Positions 17,565 to 26,702 of a DNA stretch of 46,080 bases are shown here, one piece after another (positions within the stretch are counted from its first letter, which is position 1; the number at the start of each line of letters is the position of its first letter). Source of the stretch: a virus. The notes under the pieces were generated by a model. It had not been told where the DNA came from. It saw only the letters and a program-made list of their open reading frames with translations, and searched no databases. The DNA lies in the IMG/VR virus record IMGVR_UViG_3300031772_000059, positions 1 through 46,080 of that record; one strand, 5' to 3'. The position numbers were made by a program, and so were the translations under genes.

Positions 17565-20500
17565 CTATGCTTTGGGTTTCGTGGTCTTGGCTGGTGGAGG
17601 CGTTTCCTCTGCCTCTGCGCCCTCTGCGCTCTCTGCGCTCTCTGCGCCCTCTACGCCCTCTACGCCCTCTACGCCCTCTGCACCACTCTCTACCCCAGCA
17701 CCTTCTCCACCTGCCTCACCTTCAGCGCTCTCACCACCTAATGGTGATATCTCTGGTGCTTCGCCTGACGCCTCTGGTGTCTCACCTGCCCCAGCCTCTA
17801 TCTCGCCCCCAATTTCAGCTCCAGCCAATGCTGGAACATCAGCGCCGCCTATTGCCTGGATGCCAGGTAGTGCACCCCCGCCACCCTTTTCCATAGCACC
17901 AACGATCGCATTGATGACTTGATCAATGCTTTCATTATCAGCGTGTATAATTAGAGCGCCTTCCGAAAGCTTATTACCCTTCTTGGCTGCTTCCTTCTCA
18001 TTCAAGGAAGTTCTCTTGAACCCGATCGGCTTAATCCCCTTGGTTGGGCCTTTGTATTGGGCCTCTCCAAGTGGTCCGTCGATCGGCTCTTCAGGCTCAA
18101 TTCCTACCCTCTCAGGATGCTCTTCGTCATCAATATTGTGGATTTGAGATACTTCTTCGGGATCGGACACAGATTCAAGTGTACCTAGGCAATCGGGGTC
18201 TGGACATGCATCACCATGCACCCCGATAGTTTCAGCGCCGCACACGTTGCACAAGCAGCGTTCCCCACCCTCAAGATCGCCCTCCCCTCTGATCTCGCCC
18301 ATCCGCCTCGAGATTGATTCTGGCTCTTCTAGTCTCTCTGGGCCATATGGATCGTAATCGAACGGCCCTTCATCCTCAAGATCATCAAATCTCTCATTTA
18401 TCATAGCAAGTGACTTCTTGAGAGATTCATTCTTGACAGCAGCCGACTTCAGATTACTGATCGCCTCGACTACAACTGCCTTGCTGAACTCGTTATATCT
18501 AGGCATGAATGGCTTAAGGGTTGCCCAGAAATTCTTATCTTCCTTAATCGGAGGTTTGCCCTTATCCTCGCCCTTGTCCTCGCCCTTATCCTCGCCCTTG
18601 TCCTCGCCCTTGTCCTCGCCCTTGTCCTCGCCCTTGCCCTTCTTAGCAAACATCGCCTTAACATTTTGTGGCATTGCGCCTTCAGTCTTTATTGGTGGCG
18701 CGGCCTTCACAGCCTTCTTACCACTAGCAACGCCACCCTTAATATCTGGAGATGCAGGCGTCAGTTTATCGCCCTGGTCACCAGATTTAAGTTCTGCGGC
18801 AAGTTTGGCGGTAAGATCGTCAATCCACTTACCTTTATATTGCTTACCGGTTCCAGGCTGTACGCTCTCAGGCTTCCCAACGCTCTCGGCAACACCCTTC
18901 CCCTTCGGGCGATCCATCTGAGCCCCGCCAGTCTTCGGCTTCTCAAGCTCAGTTCCCTTATTGGGTTTTAGGTCAGGGGATGGCGATACACTCTTATTAG
19001 GTAATCCCTTACCGGTAGGCTTCCCAGCGCCCTCACCCTTGCCAGAACCAGAGAAGTCAGCCTCTCCAGAAGACTTATCAGCAAGGCCCTTGCCCTTCGG
19101 AGAATCCATCTTGTAGTCACCACCGGCAGCCTTGCCCTTACCGGCATACCCTGGCTCCTTGCCAGACTTATCAGCAAGGCCCTTGCCCTTCGGCGAATCC
19201 ATGCTCGCCGCACCGTATTCTTCGTTAATCTCAACTACCTGCAACCCGACGTCTAAACCAGCGTATGGATCATCGGAAATTTCTTCCTCTTCGATAACGT
19301 CATCGCCAGTCTTGACCATCGTCTCGCGAAGCAGTTCAAACTCATGACGGAGATCGTCGGCGCCTATCTCCTCGCATCTCCTGATGTATCTTGTGAACTG
19401 GCCATTGCAATCATCGAAGCCATCTTCTTCGAGGAAGATATGCCCCTCTGTCTTCCATCCCTCCAGTTCGCCCTGAAGTTGGACCATATTCATTTCTTCG
19501 ATCATTGTGGCATGCTCGACCGATTCCCCGATTTTAGGAGGCTTCGGCACTTTTGGTGCTTCCTCCTCTTCCTCACCCTCTTCTGGCGGTAATTCTAGGC
19601 CAGGTTCCCCAGCAGGTGCGGCTGGTGCGGCTGGTGCGGCTGGTGCGGCTGGCGCAGTTGGCTTCGGTGGGGCTCCAGGAATCGGCTTAGCCTCACCCTC
19701 CGGCCCCTCAGCGATCGAGGCCGGATCATTGTCGGACTTCTCAGTGAAGTTATCGAGCCCAGGAGCGGAAATTCTCTCGATTATGCTCGTCCCAACAGAC
19801 GCTAGAAGTTTCTTAGCTTCCTCAACGATATCGTCGGACGGTTCCGGCTCGCGTAGTTCAGCCGTAATCTTCTGACATTGCTTGGCAATGTCTTCCTTAC
19901 CCTCTAACTTCCTTAGAACGGATTCGACAAATTCCAATGTTGCTAGAAGCGACTTCGCCTCAGTTACCTTCCTACCCATTCCTTCGTCAAGGGTTCTGGC
20001 GAGGAAGATATCATAGTCGCCTGGGAAGTCACCAGAAGATTCAAGAAGCTTGACGCCGTGCATCAGTTCGGCGTTCTCAGCTTTAACAGCGGTCTTCGAC
20101 CACGCGTCGATAATATCTTCCTTGTTCACCCTAGCGTTGACACGATGAAATAGCGTCGCAACATCCTCTGCCAAGAGAGAGTTAAATTCGCCATTGGCAG
20201 CTAGAGCATTTTCGATCAAGGTGACGAACCCATCGCCAGTCAGCATACTAAATTCCTGCTCTTCCTTCAGGAATTTGGCAGAAAGCTGGATGGCTTCCTT
20301 AATATTGCCCTTAGAAACTAGTCCAGCGACGTTCTTAGCTAGTTTCTGGAATGTTCCGGATTCCCAAGCGCTCTCAGCAACCGACTTCATGTGCTTGGCG
20401 ATAATCTGACGCTTGTCCATCTCATTGATAGGAATATCAAACTTAAGCTGCGACTCGGGGAATTCACCCTTGATGACTTTGCCGGTTTCGTCTAATTCGA

Positions 20501-21035
20501 CAAAATCAGACACCGCTTCGCAGAATGCTTCAGCAATAGCTGGAATATCGATCTTATTGTCGTCTTCGATAGTGATATGATGAGCCATGCTATCTCTAGT
20601 TGTGACCCATCCGCTCTCGGGGATAACCGATGGGCGGAAACGCTGCATTTCAATGGTGCGGAAGACTTGATCTGCACCCTTGAAATCATCAGCCGATAAC
20701 GATTCAACGAGGGCACAACAATGCTTGTCGAATGATTCTGGTTTCTGTTCTTCGACAACTTTAATCGGCCTCACGTTGGTAATCGCGATCCGATTGTGCT
20801 GAGCTCTACTGATGTCAGCGTGATAATATGCATTATCTCCGACATCTTCAAAGATCAGCGAATTAGCTTCAAGAGAGGTTAATTTATAATCTCTCTTAGC
20901 TTCCTTACCGATCTTCTTAACAATGTCTTCGAAGAACGCAACCTTGGATTGAGCCGACGAGTTGATTGCACGCAGAAACTTCCTTGCGTCCATAATGAAG
21001 GCCGCAGGAGTCATGTTCTGACCAGTGCTTGACAT
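17565..21035 (-). CDS. Giant low-complexity head protein with several internal repeats
   Basis: A 1156-aa protein between portal and protease. Residues 1-430 are a predicted helical domain with no recognised family. Beyond that it is mostly disordered: an APAAPAA tract (about 459-474), two copies of MDSPKGKGLADKS (about 611 and 642) with looser copies after them, six GEDK repeats (about 800-825), a Cys cluster (CLCNVCG ... CPDPDC, about 925-945), and an acidic GVEG/AES tail. It occupies the position of the T4 gp67/gp68 core proteins, so an internal head or core role with proteolytic trimming is plausible. No nuclease, kinase or other catalytic motif is visible. It ends TAG. Confidence 0.65.
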   Translation of the reverse strand: MSSTGQNMTPAAFIMDARKFLRAINSSAQSKVAFFEDIVKKIGKEAKRDYKLTSLEANSLIFEDVGDNAYYHADISRAQHNRIAITNVRPIKVVEEQKPESFDKHCCALVESLSADDFKGADQVFRTIEMQRFRPSVIPESGWVTTRDSMAHHITIEDDNKIDIPAIAEAFCEAVSDFVELDETGKVIKGEFPESQLKFDIPINEMDKRQIIAKHMKSVAESAWESGTFQKLAKNVAGLVSKGNIKEAIQLSAKFLKEEQEFSMLTGDGFVTLIENALAANGEFNSLLAEDVATLFHRVNARVNKEDIIDAWSKTAVKAENAELMHGVKLLESSGDFPGDYDIFLARTLDEGMGRKVTEAKSLLATLEFVESVLRKLEGKEDIAKQCQKITAELREPEPSDDIVEEAKKLLASVGTSIIERISAPGLDNFTEKSDNDPASIAEGPEGEAKPIPGAPPKPTAPAAPAAPAAPAAPAGEPGLELPPEEGEEEEEAPKVPKPPKIGESVEHATMIEEMNMVQLQGELEGWKTEGHIFLEEDGFDDCNGQFTRYIRRCEEIGADDLRHEFELLRETMVKTGDDVIEEEEISDDPYAGLDVGLQVVEINEEYGAASMDSPKGKGLADKSGKEPGYAGKGKAAGGDYKMDSPKGKGLADKSSGEADFSGSGKGEGAGKPTGKGLPNKSVSPSPDLKPNKGTELEKPKTGGAQMDRPKGKGVAESVGKPESVQPGTGKQYKGKWIDDLTAKLAAELKSGDQGDKLTPASPDIKGGVASGKKAVKAAPPIKTEGAMPQNVKAMFAKKGKGEDKGEDKGEDKGEDKGEDKGEDKGKPPIKEDKNFWATLKPFMPRYNEFSKAVVVEAISNLKSAAVKNESLKKSLAMINERFDDLEDEGPFDYDPYGPERLEEPESISRRMGEIRGEGDLEGGERCLCNVCGAETIGVHGDACPDPDCLGTLESVSDPEEVSQIHNIDDEEHPERVGIEPEEPIDGPLGEAQYKGPTKGIKPIGFKRTSLNEKEAAKKGNKLSEGALIIHADNESIDQVINAIVGAMEKGGGGALPGIQAIGGADVPALAGAEIGGEIEAGAGETPEASGEAPEISPLGGESAEGEAGGEGAGVESGAEGVEGVEGVEGAESAESAEGAEAEETPPPAKTTKPKA
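17607..17685. repeat. 9-base tandem repeats (GVE/AES codons)
   Basis: Repeated CTCTGCGCC and CTCTACGCC units, eight to nine in a row, encode the Val-Glu-Gly and Ala-Glu-Ser tail of the 1156-aa protein. Confidence 0.8.
18559..18639. repeat. 12-base tandem repeats (GEDK codons)
   Basis: Six to seven near-identical CCTCGCCCTTGT units, with single T/A differences, encode the Gly-Glu-Asp-Lys tract of the 1156-aa protein. Confidence 0.85.
19072..19202. repeat. Direct repeat of 38 bases (MDSPKGKGLADKS)
   Basis: The segment GACTTATCAGCAAGGCCC... at 19072-19109 recurs at 19165-19202 with one visible difference. Both copies are in frame in the 1156-aa protein and suggest a recent internal duplication of about 93 bases. 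Confidence 0.8.
19614..19658. repeat. 9-base tandem repeats (APA codons)
   Basis: Four to five GGTGCGGCT units encode the APAAPAA hinge-like tract of the 1156-aa protein. Confidence 0.8.
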
Positions 21036-21051
21036 CTCTCTATCTCCTATA

Positions 21052-22977
21052 CTAATTAGAATTTTCTATGTCTATATTTGCTGGAATTTCACCATCTGAT
21101 TCGAGTGATTCGGGTTGTGTTGATTTTAGTAACTTTTCCATCTGGTTTTTAGCATCAATTGCGTCCCCATCTCCTCTATTGATAGCACTCTCGATTAATA
21201 TGATTTCTTGTTTATTACTGTTAGTTTTAGATAATCCATCAAGTTCCCCAGAATTCAGTAGATACTCAAATCCAGAATGTAATTTATCATTGCTCTTATG
21301 GTTAATTGCCTCTGATATTTCAACCTTTTTGATTGGCTTAGATTTGTTTACTTCCTCGTTCAAAACTCTTTCAAGCTCATAATCATACCCCTCAAGTGGC
21401 GGCAGGCCCGGTGGACCAGCACCTTCTCCACCCTCACCGGCACCTTCTCCGCCTTCTTCACCTGGGATTGGCGGACCGGCTTCCTTACCACCAGGCATTG
21501 GCAATGGTGGTAATCCTCCGCCACCCCCACCCAGCCCTCCGCCACCCCCACCCAGCCCTCCGCCACCCCCACCACCCTTACCACCCTCAGCAGCACCACC
21601 CTCAGCAGCCGCTTTTTCTTTTTCCTTCTTTATTTGCTTGATTTCATCGTCTGTCATATCAGTGAATCGTTTCAGTATCCATTCGTCAGGAAACATATCT
21701 GTTCCCTTTAAGGCGTCAATAACATCGGCCCTAGATGACCAAGTCTCGATGCGATATAGTTCATCTATAGCAGAACTTGCTGTCATATGCAGCGAGAAAC
21801 TCTTAAGGTCCTTCTCTGTATATCCTCTAAGGGCAAGATGAATTATGGCAATTTTTTTAAGCCCCATAACTACTTCGCGCTGAATCCATTGCACCGCCTT
21901 GGCAAATTCAGGTGCTACGTGAGACAGCGATTTTGATTCATTATCAGATGGTTCACCAATACCAACCCTACTAAATGGAATCTTAAGCCCAGCTATCATC
22001 TTCTTCTTGAAATATTCTATGTCTGCAATCTGGTCAAGGTTCTCGGCGCCTGGCAGAGTCTCGACCTTTGGCCCTGAACCATCTGGTCTTTGCGGCAGCC
22101 AGAAATCATCTTCTTGGATTAGAGGGTGCCATCTCTCGTTAATATCGCCGGTCGCTGGATCAAAGAATCTCTTCTTTTTGAACCTTGACGCGATCTTCTC
22201 AATGTAGTTCGGAACTTCATGCGTTGGAATGTGCCCGACAGGTATTGTAAACACGCGCTTTTCTGGAGCACGAGTTAGACGATATATAATTGCCGCGTCT
22301 TCCATCAACCTCAATTGCTTAAAATGCTTTCTTGCGCCGTTAAGCAGCGATCTTCCGTATGGGTGGAATATATTCTCATATGAAGTCAACCTCATATGGG
22401 CTACTTGCCACGGGTGAAAGAATTCTGGATTTCTAATAATCTCATCTTGGTAAAAGAAGCCAATCAAATCACCATATTTGGTCTCTATTCTTGTAAAGTT
22501 GTACACATTCATAAACCGCAAACTGGCCACACCATCGCGGTTCTTGGTCGGAACTATTTCAGTTGGAAAATCACCATATTTGCATAGATACCTAATCATT
22601 GGACGCAATACATTGTCCAACGATAAAGTTTCATATAGAAGATCTTCGATCTCATCTTTGATAATTTTGGCATCGGCCTTGACCATTATTGAGTGTTTTA
22701 ATTCAGGATCGATTAACGATGCTTCGTCTGCGTACAGATCTAATGCTAGAGTAATTTCACCAACTTCATCCATTTGATCATAGTCTTTGTAGCGCTCCAA
22801 ACGATTAATGTGTAGGTTAGTTTGCTCAAGTAGCGCATGTTGTGACCCAAGATTGATAAAGTCGCCAGACGCAATAAGCTTATCAATAGACGACTGGTCA
22901 GTGAATAAACGATCGCCACGATGGACGTTTATTCTTTTAAAAAAGGCTGATAGTCTATCAAATAATTGAAAGCTCAT
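21052..22977 (-). CDS. 20: Portal vertex protein, T4 gp20-like
   Basis: A 641-aa protein. The gp20 core is clear: YRLTRAPEKRVFTIPVG (about 233-249), DEDFWLP-like EDDFWLPQRPDGSG, a TLPGAENLDQIADIEYF block and KIPFSRVG. Twelve subunits would form the ring through which DNA is packaged and to which the neck binds. After residue 445 comes a Lys/Ala/Glu stretch and then a Gly-rich tract (467-488) encoded by three 21-base repeats, followed by an acidic tail of about 110 residues. This C-terminal extension is not part of the usual portal core. The start overlaps the upstream endonuclease gene stop (ATGA). Confidence 0.93.
   Translation of the reverse strand: MSFQLFDRLSAFFKRINVHRGDRLFTDQSSIDKLIASGDFINLGSQHALLEQTNLHINRLERYKDYDQMDEVGEITLALDLYADEASLIDPELKHSIMVKADAKIIKDEIEDLLYETLSLDNVLRPMIRYLCKYGDFPTEIVPTKNRDGVASLRFMNVYNFTRIETKYGDLIGFFYQDEIIRNPEFFHPWQVAHMRLTSYENIFHPYGRSLLNGARKHFKQLRLMEDAAIIYRLTRAPEKRVFTIPVGHIPTHEVPNYIEKIASRFKKKRFFDPATGDINERWHPLIQEDDFWLPQRPDGSGPKVETLPGAENLDQIADIEYFKKKMIAGLKIPFSRVGIGEPSDNESKSLSHVAPEFAKAVQWIQREVVMGLKKIAIIHLALRGYTEKDLKSFSLHMTASSAIDELYRIETWSSRADVIDALKGTDMFPDEWILKRFTDMTDDEIKQIKKEKEKAAAEGGAAEGGKGGGGGGGLGGGGGGLGGGGGGLPPLPMPGGKEAGPPIPGEEGGEGAGEGGEGAGPPGLPPLEGYDYELERVLNEEVNKSKPIKKVEISEAINHKSNDKLHSGFEYLLNSGELDGLSKTNSNKQEIILIESAINRGDGDAIDAKNQMEKLLKSTQPESLESDGEIPANIDIENSN
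21515..21577. repeat. 21-base tandem repeat in the portal gene
   Basis: CCTCCGCCACCCCCACCCAGC occurs at 21515 and 21536 exactly and at 21557 with its end changed. It encodes the LGGGGGG tract of the portal protein. Confidence 0.85.
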
Positions 22978-24284
22978 TGGTCGATCTCTAATTTGTACTT
23001 CTTCAACGGTGGAGAATTGACTCTTTTATAATTAAATTTTGTGGCAAATTCATTTTCATTCATATGCATCGCTTTGGCTTGATTATATAATGTCTTCTTA
23101 TGCATTTTCCATCCTTCACCGTTTACATAAAAATATGATGGTTTGGTATCACCAGCGAATTTCCAATTCGCAGCCTTATATATTGTTCCATAATGACCAG
23201 CGCTAGGATCGGCATAACTAACAATTGATTTGGTGCCATGTGGCACGAAATTAATTAACTTAGATAAGAAAAATGACCCAAGATTATGATTGTGTACGAA
23301 CGACGATATGGCAAACCTAGTAAGTTCTAACATCTCAGATTTTTCAAGCCCGTCTGACACGTACATTTCTCTCCTGGTTGGGTGTGCCATAATTGCTCCG
23401 CACACCATTTCGTCGTCAATATATCCGCCAATGCACGTTCCAGACCTACCCATCCCTCCAAGATAATGATAATTACTCATAAACCTACGCATGTCATCAA
23501 TATCGGCGATTTTAAACTCAATATCACATAAATTAATATGCCTTCTCTGTGGTTCTCTACCAACCCACATCGCCACTAATGTCTTAAGTCTATCAACATC
23601 AGATAGTTGATTTTCCCAGATAGTCTTGAGCTCAAAATCATTAAGATTATCAATATATGATGACTTCGCCGCATCCTTACGCATAACATATGGCCTAGTA
23701 TGCCAATAATTACCATTAATTTCTATTAAAAGCTTCGGACGAGCAATTCGTTCGATTATGTAGTCGAACGTATATGGCCCAACAACATAATTTGTATCAA
23801 ATGCGATTCCTAAATCTAATAAAATGGTATCAAACTTAATCTCAGTTTTAGGTCTTGATACCAATTGGTTAGCTAAAGAAATAGCATGTTTCGATCTATA
23901 AACTGGGTCACTCCACGCTTTAATTGCTGCGTCGGAGCATTTCGATCTACTTTCGACAGTGTTAACTGCATTGTGGTGTTTTGATTTAAACCCTTGATCA
24001 TTCCACAGATCCAAGCTCGACTTAGACCTAACAGATTTATAAGAATCATCCTTCCACTGCTCCGTTGTGCTTTTTGATAACTTAGCTCTTACTTCTTCTC
24101 TTCCACCAACACATCTTGAGCATTGCCAGCTTTGCTGGTTATTATTTATTTTAGACTTGACTCTTATCGTAATTACATGAGGTTCATTACAATTATCGCA
24201 TCTACATATGACTTTTGGTCTATATAAATTAAGGCACTCAGTTCCATGCCCCAATTCTCTAGATGTAGCTGTCCAATCTATCAT
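22974..24284 (-). CDS. Vsr-like homing endonuclease fused to a Mom-like GNAT domain
   Basis: A 436-aa protein. Residues 28-57 form a zinc ribbon (CRCDNC, WQCSRC). Residues 60-140 hold basic helical repeats (TEQWKDDSYKS, LDLWNDQGFKS, IKAWSDPVYRS), a probable DNA-binding array. Residues 145-240 match the Vsr/EDxHD-type nuclease: KTEIKFDTILLDLGI, YTFDYII with Asp174, and LIEINGNYWHT with Glu188 and His195. Residues 250-420 resemble the phage Mu Mom acyltransferase-like domain: YHYLGGMG, ELTRFAISSF, SYADPSAGHYGTIYKAANW with Asp359 and Tyr369. It sits between terminase and portal with four-base ATGA overlaps on both sides, a typical spot for a mobile endonuclease. Whether the Mom part still modifies adenine is unknown. 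Confidence 0.75.
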   Translation of the reverse strand: MIDWTATSRELGHGTECLNLYRPKVICRCDNCNEPHVITIRVKSKINNNQQSWQCSRCVGGREEVRAKLSKSTTEQWKDDSYKSVRSKSSLDLWNDQGFKSKHHNAVNTVESRSKCSDAAIKAWSDPVYRSKHAISLANQLVSRPKTEIKFDTILLDLGIAFDTNYVVGPYTFDYIIERIARPKLLIEINGNYWHTRPYVMRKDAAKSSYIDNLNDFELKTIWENQLSDVDRLKTLVAMWVGREPQRRHINLCDIEFKIADIDDMRRFMSNYHYLGGMGRSGTCIGGYIDDEMVCGAIMAHPTRREMYVSDGLEKSEMLELTRFAISSFVHNHNLGSFFLSKLINFVPHGTKSIVSYADPSAGHYGTIYKAANWKFAGDTKPSYFYVNGEGWKMHKKTLYNQAKAMHMNENEFATKFNYKRVNSPPLKKYKLEIDQ

Positions 24285-26188
24285 TTCTTGAGCGATTGCA
24301 ATTTATATTTTTTAAATTTAACAGTCTCAATGTTATTTTTGGTCTTAGTATCTATCATAATACCGCCAAGCTGGTGTTGAAATTTGACAACCTCAGCGTC
24401 AATACTACACCTGCCGGTTTCATATTCGCTATTTACACTAATCGGAGCCATAATATTCTTATCACCTAACATAGGAAGAATATCTTCTGAACTATCAACA
24501 ACAGTCATTGGAACGTCAACATTGTGGAACGGCAAAAGATTGTGGCTTCCAATTCTAATCGCGTCAGTTATACCAATGAATGCCAGACCCACCGAAATTA
24601 TTAGGTCATCATTATTACCAACTCCTGGTTCTGCACCAGTCTTGTTTCCGCTTAACTGAACATATATCAATGCCTCTTTATATAGCCTTCCCGAATATAT
24701 AGCATAACCATTTTCTCCAAGCCCATCGATCAACGACTTGTTCAGCACATGCTTACTCTGGCCTGTGGTTGAGAATCCAAGGAATCCAGCTTTAATCTTA
24801 AGATCTGCCCTTTTCCTGCGGCTTCTATAGACGTTCGGATACGCTAAATCTTCAAACAACTCCTGGCATGTGGCCCTACCTATACCAGTGTTTTCGACAA
24901 CAGCACACGCATTATTGTACCATCTACCAACGTAATCAATCATCTTGGCGAACACTTTTGGCCTAACCTTGATTTTAAGTTCTGCTACTTGTTCACCTTC
25001 GCTAATATCGAATACTTCGATCGCACTATAGTCATCACCCTCACCAGTTGCAACGTCGCACCCCATTATATATTGATGCGGAGATTCTTCATAAACTTTC
25101 CCGTCCTCACCTTCCCTCTCTCCTCCCTTCTCTGGCGTCTTCCAAATCCACAAATCATTCCTAAAATCAAGTACCTCTCTTTCGGATGTCGTTGGGTTCA
25201 CATAATCAATCACGCCGACTGTCTTGTAATTCTTGCCTTCTCTAGCAACTGTGCTACTAATAATTGCAAGAGTCTGCCTAGATAGAATTGTATGCCCTGT
25301 GCCGACAAATTCGGCCAAAACTTCTTGTCTAAACTTAGCGTCATCACCTTTTTCTGTAAGGTTTCTATACTCTCCTTCGAGCCATGGGCTCCAATAAGGG
25401 CCATATTTTTCAATCTCTTCAGATGTCTTGCACGGCCTAATTTCTTTTGTTGGACAGATTTCGATTTGGGATCTAGCCAATTCATCTCTATACTTTATTG
25501 ACCATGTCATATCCCACCAATTAATGACAATAGGATTAAAGTCATTTTGACCAGCTTCAGCGTCAGTCCAGAATCTCCAATACCAATTTCCTAAGCCCTT
25601 AACAGTTGAAATAACAATAGCCGATCCGCCGTGAACCATTGTCGGCCAGCCGCCGCTCCACATATCATCCATGTGAGGCATAAATGCCGCTTCGTCAATA
25701 ATATTGAGTGATGAAGCGTGCGAGCGTAATGTGTCGGGGCTTGATGTAAGGCTGGAAACTCTAGACCCATTATTAAATCCAAGTTCATGCTCGTTTCTAA
25801 TCCCACCAACATCAGCTGAGTCTTTCCATACATCGTGGAACCATGATGGCAACTGATCATATACGAATTTGACGTTCTTCTTTAGGAAATTCTTAGCATC
25901 AGTATCTCTCTTGGAAACTATTAAAACTGTCTTATTGTTGAAAAACATTGCATACCATAGCGCAAATGCACCAGCTAAGGTAGATATACCACATTGTCTT
26001 GTTTTTCTGTAGATCGAAAATCTATGACTTAGGAATGCCGCTAAACTTCTTCTTTGGTAATCAAATAGTTTAAATGGTATAATACCGGCCTTGGGATGCT
26101 CTACTTTACAGAAATTCTCAATCCAGAATGCAGGATTCTTCTGGCATTTCCTAATAAGCTGCTCAAGTTGTTTTGGGTTTATCGCCAT
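24281..26188 (-). CDS. 17: Terminase large subunit, T4 gp17-like
   Basis: About 635 aa. The ATPase half has YRKTRQCGIST, a Walker A variant with the lysine shifted upstream, and SLNIIDEAAF as Walker B with the catalytic Glu. The C-terminal RNase H-like nuclease has the acidic triad in MGCDVATGEGDDYSAI, VVENTGIG and NNDDLIISV. It cuts concatemeric DNA and pumps it into the prohead through the portal. The ATG at 26188 is preferred over 26194 because GAGG is then six bases away. It overlaps the small terminase gene by 26 bases and the next gene by four. Confidence 0.93.
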   Translation of the reverse strand: MAINPKQLEQLIRKCQKNPAFWIENFCKVEHPKAGIIPFKLFDYQRRSLAAFLSHRFSIYRKTRQCGISTLAGAFALWYAMFFNNKTVLIVSKRDTDAKNFLKKNVKFVYDQLPSWFHDVWKDSADVGGIRNEHELGFNNGSRVSSLTSSPDTLRSHASSLNIIDEAAFMPHMDDMWSGGWPTMVHGGSAIVISTVKGLGNWYWRFWTDAEAGQNDFNPIVINWWDMTWSIKYRDELARSQIEICPTKEIRPCKTSEEIEKYGPYWSPWLEGEYRNLTEKGDDAKFRQEVLAEFVGTGHTILSRQTLAIISSTVAREGKNYKTVGVIDYVNPTTSEREVLDFRNDLWIWKTPEKGGEREGEDGKVYEESPHQYIMGCDVATGEGDDYSAIEVFDISEGEQVAELKIKVRPKVFAKMIDYVGRWYNNACAVVENTGIGRATCQELFEDLAYPNVYRSRRKRADLKIKAGFLGFSTTGQSKHVLNKSLIDGLGENGYAIYSGRLYKEALIYVQLSGNKTGAEPGVGNNDDLIISVGLAFIGITDAIRIGSHNLLPFHNVDVPMTVVDSSEDILPMLGDKNIMAPISVNSEYETGRCSIDAEVVKFQHQLGGIMIDTKTKNNIETVKFKKYKLQSLKK

Positions 26189-26702
26189 CGGCATCCTCGT
26201 CGAGCAGGCTCGATAGGTCTATAATCGTAGATGATGACTGGAATATATTAGTGTTCTTGGTGGCGCCAACCAATCTAGCAAATGAATCTAATAATTTAAT
26301 TATGCTGGCGTTGGCCTCCGCTTTGGTGCGCAGAGCTGATACCAAACCCATTACTATGTGTTCCTGCGGTTTGCTATTCTGGTTGAATAAATCCTTAAGA
26401 GATGCTATCGTCTCCTCTATCTCATCCCTATCTGAGCCAAAATTATCAAGAATCCTGTCGGCTATGTCGTTGAATTTCTTGAATGTATGTTTTAGATCAA
26501 CTACAGCTTCCTCCTTGATCGGCAGTTTCTCCTGAATAGGCTGCGCGGCAGGCAATTTACTAACATCAACATCAGCGCTTGGTAGGGGATCAGCCGCTTG
26601 TGCCAATAATTTTGTTAGTTCGGGATCAATATTGTCTACGTTGGTTGGCTTGCTTTCTGGTTTATCTGTTCTCTTATCTTCTTTGTCTCTTGTCTCATCC
26701 AT
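26163..26702 (-). CDS. 16: Terminase small subunit, gp16-like
   Basis: A 179-aa protein just upstream of the large terminase. The N-terminal 60 residues are charged and probably disordered. Residues about 70-150 are helical (FKKFNDIADRILDNFG, EEIEETIASLK-like, HIVMGLVSALRTKAEANASI), like the coiled-coil oligomerisation core of gp16-type subunits. It would recognise phage DNA and stimulate the large subunit. Sequence similarity in this family is weak; position and helical pattern carry the call. The start has GGAG ten bases upstream. Confidence 0.75.
   Translation of the reverse strand: MDETRDKEDKRTDKPESKPTNVDNIDPELTKLLAQAADPLPSADVDVSKLPAAQPIQEKLPIKEEAVVDLKHTFKKFNDIADRILDNFGSDRDEIEETIASLKDLFNQNSKPQEHIVMGLVSALRTKAEANASIIKLLDSFARLVGATKNTNIFQSSSTIIDLSSLLDEDADGDKPKTT

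Follow-up and report, generated by a model that had tools for sequence, protein, structure and literature searches.

A modular homing-endonuclease-like protein with a fused Mom domain at the terL-portal junction of an uncultured virus

In an uncultured virus contig (IMG/VR record IMGVR_UViG_3300031772_000059), a gene encoding both a DNA-cutting domain and a relative of a DNA-modifying enzyme lies between the genes for the large terminase subunit (terL) and the portal protein, which raises the question of what such a protein does at this position. The stretch analyzed here, hereinafter referred to as the window, comprises all 46,080 bases of the record. Genes for a T4-like portal, TerL, major head protein, tape measure, baseplate, helicase, and ribonucleotide reductase were identified in the window. 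The gene in question, on the minus strand, starts with ATG and overlaps each of its two neighbors by ATGA, and the coordinates agreed with an earlier sequence-only reading in this respect (Table 1). At 100% identity, it was found in two IMG/VR contigs (L001/L014 and L003), the latter covering only its first 178 residues, where the contig ends. The comparative analysis was based on IMG/VR contigs, denoted by L numbers. Scanning the window for Rfam families and tRNAs gave no hits, NCBIfam contained no family for the 436-aa protein, and blastn of the terL-gene-portal stretch against a phage collection gave no match. Elsewhere in the window, a 1156-aa gene after the portal (17565-21035, minus strand) contained a GEDK tandem repeat and had a weak PHROG match and no Pfam match, and a glycine-rich stretch was present near the C-terminus of the portal (21396-21600, minus strand).

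Table 1. Features of the gene and its two neighbors in the window.
Feature	Coordinates	Strand	Basis
Whole gene: modular homing-endonuclease-like protein, 436 aa	22974..24284	-	ORF list, domain profiles, predicted structure
terL, large terminase subunit, 637 aa, intein-free; stop overlaps the ATG of ORF 22974-24284	24281..26194	-	
Portal protein (T4 gp20-like), 641 aa; ATG overlaps the stop of ORF 22974-24284	21052..22977	-	
Zinc ribbon, ~residues 28-59 (CDNC...CSRC), opening the site-tracking N-terminal module	24108..24201	-	
Helical W-D-x-x-Y-R repeat region, ~residues 60-138; motifs W77, W94, W124	23868..24107	-	
EDxHD (Vsr-like) nuclease domain, ~residues 145-243	23556..23852	-	
Mom (GNAT-fold) domain, residues 252-436	22977..23531	-	

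A zinc ribbon, a Vsr-like nuclease, and a Mom domain had been proposed to share one chain, and all three were recovered by profile matching and structure prediction. The zinc-ribbon cysteines are C29/C32 and C55/C58, and the motifs LIEINGNYWH and SYADPSAGHYGTIY begin at residues 186 and 356, respectively. The Pfam Mom family (PF25680) matched residues 255-430 (E 1.4e-22; 80.8 bits against a cut-off of 27.1), PADLOC assigned residues 106-241 to a homing endonuclease (E 8e-10), and the PHROGs homing-endonuclease profile spanned residues 57-422 unbroken (E 1.7e-15). By sequence, residues 150-241 matched the solved endonuclease I-Bth0305I (3r3p; E 5.8e-6). An AlphaFold2 model built from 46 relatives had a mean pLDDT of 92.3 and a pTM of 0.60, so that the domain folds are reliable and the domain placement is less so. 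In this model, residues 252-436 were superposed on Mu Mom (PDB 8bv8) with Z 17.5 and rmsd 2.9 over 165 residues, which was the best fold match, 3 Z units over the next GNAT. The GNAT/Mom fold expected for the C-terminal part was thereby found, and the domain belongs to the Mom family by both its score over the curated cut-off and its fold.

Residues 145-243 of the model fitted I-Bth0305I (3r3p) with Z 13.3 and rmsd 2.1 A over 92 residues at 27% identity. The conserved residues of the nuclease are E148, D174, E188, N190, H195, D204, W223, and E224; among the 46 relatives, D174, H195, and D204 are invariant, E188 is nearly so, and E148 is often Q. With its Vsr-like fold and conserved acidic, His, and Asp residues, the nuclease belongs with the EDxHD homing endonucleases. 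Very long W-D-x-x-F-R arrays were observed in two relatives (L159:2129-5947 and L147:2834-5137; 27 and 16 motif hits), with repeats spaced 13, 17, or 30 residues, and possibly represent a modular DNA-reading array. In relatives rich in repeats, matches to Pfam GerD were discounted as artefacts of the repeats.

Whether the Mom domain retains an active site was assessed in 72 relatives picked on profile score alone. H273, Y274, R323, and Y369 were invariant (72/72), D359 was present in 71, and the S337 column contained S or T in every sequence. All six residues ranked within the 18 most conserved of 176 columns, and the mean column identity across the 46-sequence alignment of relatives was 25%. 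Apart from the serine, these residues reportedly matter for Mu Mom activity, as judged from mutagenesis. S337 aligns with S124 of Mu Mom (241-aa numbering), which is alanine in 8bv8, and the title of that entry calls the serine-to-alanine mutant inactive. The six residues thus correspond to the active site of PF25680, including the serine mutated in 8bv8. The same set was present in stand-alone Moms (n = 10), except that S was T or A in two of them. In 19 Hef-type proteins, H, R, S, D, and Y were largely retained, the position of Y274 was never Tyr (0/19), and H364 was mostly lost. Judged from these residues, the Mom domain of the 436-aa protein is apparently catalytically intact.

An insertion at the terL-portal junction, with relatives lacking the gene, had also been suggested, and such relatives were found. 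In three portal relatives fetched by sequence (L015, L016, L017), the junction was empty, with 16, 8, and 11 nt between terL and portal, respectively. These are the closest portal kin of the window (84-86% on the portal core) and clustered with it at full support in the portal tree. Occupancy switched at least eight times on this tree, which is unrooted, so that each switch may be a gain or a loss, and pairs such as L031/L037 and L033/L030 were in opposite states. Occupied and empty versions of one site in close relatives are what characterizes a homing endonuclease. By Mom domain, the nearest relatives were L095, L040, L027, and L002; the portals of these phages are clearly further from the window portal than are the portals of L015-L017, with 60-66% in L002, L027, and L040. 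The gene directly adjoined the portal in L002, L027, L040, L095, L037, L059, L098, and L123, and stood beside it in divergent orientation in L068 and L100. Since its distance to terL varied, reaching 1,000 nt in L123, the portal (5' end) is the constant neighbor of this site type. The window portal start resembled that of the empty relatives, and comparison of the portal 5' end with those relatives revealed no co-conversion footprint. Separately, in-frame intein-like inserts were observed in terL of the nearest empty-site phage (L015:2360-3100) and of L018, L021, L024, and L040, and the window terL carried none. These inserts interrupt the RQC-GIS motif of terL near residue 67, start with C, and end in VVHN-C or similar; a further insert lies near residue 184 in L024 and L040.

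The N-terminal module was found to track the insertion site. In a search with residues 1-110, the 11 portal-adjacent copies scored 41-95 bits, all at least 76 except L068, whereas the 55 copies elsewhere scored at most 65 bits (p 9e-8, with the reservation that the copies are related and thus not independent draws). For the catalytic half, portal-adjacent and other copies were not separated (p 0.06). L097 was left out of the site comparison, as its flank is bounded by a further gene of this kind and by the end of the contig. Further, portal-type N-termini were joined to catalytic halves typical of other sites in L037, L068, L100, and L123. In L061:1503-2906 and L089:3484-4887, the same insertion site and N-terminal module were combined with an HNH-like cutter, the motif of which was spotted by eye with no Pfam HNH hit; the Mom-fold domain of these two was altered (Y to F, giving HF for HY; D to E; Y to H). 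In L062, L066, and L067, genes on the opposite strand joined a Hef-type cutter to a related N-terminus. Three different cutting modules are therefore combined with one N-terminal module at the portal site. One exception was L163, with two moderately related N-terminal modules beside a DUF2201 gene. Because the module tracks the site and the cutters differ, the N-terminal module most likely sets the insertion site and the cutting half is exchanged.

Copies of the family were also found at many other sites. Mom domains were present in 13 of 15 large contigs, the maximum being eight Mom-bearing genes in a single contig of 341 kb. Of the 49 Mom matches in these contigs, 47 fell in long, fused open frames of at least 440 residues. 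The other copies adjoined genes for helicase, major head protein, DNA polymerase fragments, clamp loader, SSB, and tail sheath. Such dispersal of several copies next to conserved genes is the mark of a mobile gene. A nuclease of the same type lacking Mom was encoded in L165. Three contigs binned as Lokiarchaeota (L171, L172, L173) carried window-type genes; in L171 a tail sheath gene adjoins the copy, so this contig is more likely from a phage than from an archaeon. The copy at L146:1244-3664 adjoins an 807-aa protein matching the PHROG for 2-aminooxy adenylosuccinate synthetase (PurZ-like), and adenine replacement alongside the copy is possible in this phage. At L103:2528-3904 and L156:1432-3492, the ORF immediately ahead of the gene covers no more than the N-terminal part of a DNA polymerase family, which suggests insertion inside a split polymerase gene.

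The gene is likely a free-standing homing endonuclease with a fused, probably active Mom domain. We infer cleavage, homing, and DNA modification with its purpose as follows. The zinc ribbon and helical repeats most likely recognize the portal gene start or the terL-portal junction, the EDxHD nuclease would cut genomes lacking the gene, and repair off the carrier would copy the gene into the cut genome. The Mom domain most likely still modifies adenine, since the residues of a working DNA-adenine acyltransferase are kept. With these residues in place, both purposes proposed in the sequence-only reading, self-protection or modification and cutting at one target, may be compatible with the protein. 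The modification would probably be placed on the DNA of the carrier itself or close to it, and could there shield an uninterrupted target or aid the carrier phage against restriction. Free-standing homing endonucleases usually escape cutting their own DNA because they interrupt or alter the target site. A target inside the portal would stay uninterrupted, since the gene is located outside the coding sequence of the portal and the portal start is like that of empty relatives; if such a target is assumed, self-protection by modification becomes attractive. A junction-spanning site would be interrupted and would need no protection. In a tentative and somewhat unlikely extension, Mom would acylate adenines in or near the recognition site, leaving the carrier's uninterrupted portal target immune and unmodified rivals cut, so that homing and restriction-modification would be merged in one exchangeable protein.

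Other readings of the gene differ in what they ask of the Mom domain and of the site. If the Mom fold were a non-catalytic DNA-binding or structural module, the protein would still be a homing endonuclease and only the Mom activity would differ; this reading is not favored, yet it has a fair claim to attention, since Hef-like endonucleases persist despite losing Y274 and mostly H364, and L061/L089 carry the three substitutions described above. The conserved Mom residues could also be kept for binding and not for catalysis. However, four of them are invariant in all 72 window-type relatives at low overall column identity, and the window-type residue set is that of stand-alone Moms. A one-protein restriction-modification system, in which Mom acylation protects the phage genome and the nuclease destroys unmarked host or superinfecting phage DNA, agrees with two active sites that look intact and with a published prediction for the Mom-REase architecture (PMC7824862). 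We consider it quite improbable, as the N-terminal module tracks one insertion site, the nearest relatives have empty sites, several different copies per genome adjoin core genes, and the cutting module is swapped at one site; moreover, nucleases of this type are also found without Mom (L165), and among solved structures the closest relative of the nuclease is a homing endonuclease. The site data favor homing over restriction-modification. Homing endonucleases also exert a restriction effect on rival phages, and such an effect may be compatible with homing here.

HNH proteins adjoining terminase genes can be packaging-associated nucleases, and the tight ATGA coupling with terL and portal would fit a resident nuclease of this kind rather than a mobile gene. 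This is very improbable, given that the gene is absent in the nearest relatives, opposite to the portal in orientation in L068 and L100, and far from terL in L123, and that family copies adjoin unrelated genes.

Returning to a homing endonuclease with a probably active Mom domain, known systems share parts of this design. A complete base-modifying active site kept inside an endonuclease would link selfish homing genes to restriction-modification, and the window family provides natural combinations of a single site-recognition module with EDxHD, HNH-like, or Hef-type cutters, all at one site. No literature tying homing endonucleases to Mom in the present sense was found in a search that covered a minority of subscription papers. 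I-Bth0305I shares D, E, N, H, and D positions with the window nuclease; it is a mobile intron protein according to its deposition, and no Mom domain is present in the part that was solved, whereas the window gene is free-standing. Mu Mom (PF25680, PHROG 1384, PDB 8bv8), deposited in the last entry as a methylcarbamoylase, has the fold and the residues H, Y, R, S, D, and Y in common with the window domain, but is a stand-alone enzyme, whereas the window Mom shares its chain with a nuclease and the site-tracking module.

Also similar in design are Hef-like homing endonucleases (PHROG 3339; for example RaK2 ORF158, Campylobacter Hef73/74, Vibrio VP-1), which likewise combine zinc-finger-like N-terminal parts, a Vsr-like nuclease, and a Mom-like C-terminal domain in one chain and likewise adjoin core phage genes. 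Hef was described from phage U5 as a homing endonuclease targeting the nrdB region (PMC2988022). Hef Mom-like domains differ from the window type in having lost the second residue of the H-Y pair (Tyr in 0/19) and, in most cases, the H preceding G. In an unrooted Mom-domain tree, Hef-type and stand-alone domains formed separate supported groups (100/100 for Hef), and the window Mom domain fell outside the Hef clade, the Hef set being without the phage U5 Hef. Window-type Mom domains grouped together save for two HNH-swapped sequences, so that this group needs two changes, not one. One origin for all fused Moms was not rejected by the AU test (p 0.558).

In 2021, Iyer et al. (PMC7824862) described Mom-REase fusions from jumbo phages and interpreted them as combining restriction with protection. 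The 436-aa protein has this general architecture, a Mom domain fused to a REase-fold domain. The fusion of a DNA cutter with a relative of a modifying enzyme, noted in the sequence-only reading, thus stands with two refinements: the cutter is of the EDxHD homing type, and the fusion is shared with Hef-like proteins and those of PMC7824862. The word 'homing' does not occur in the text of that article, and the passages compared here contain no empty-site, module-swap, or site-tracking evidence. The present analysis adds that the window family forms a group of its own: its Mom signature is complete, its sites show a mobile pattern, and its site-tracking module is joined with different cutters.
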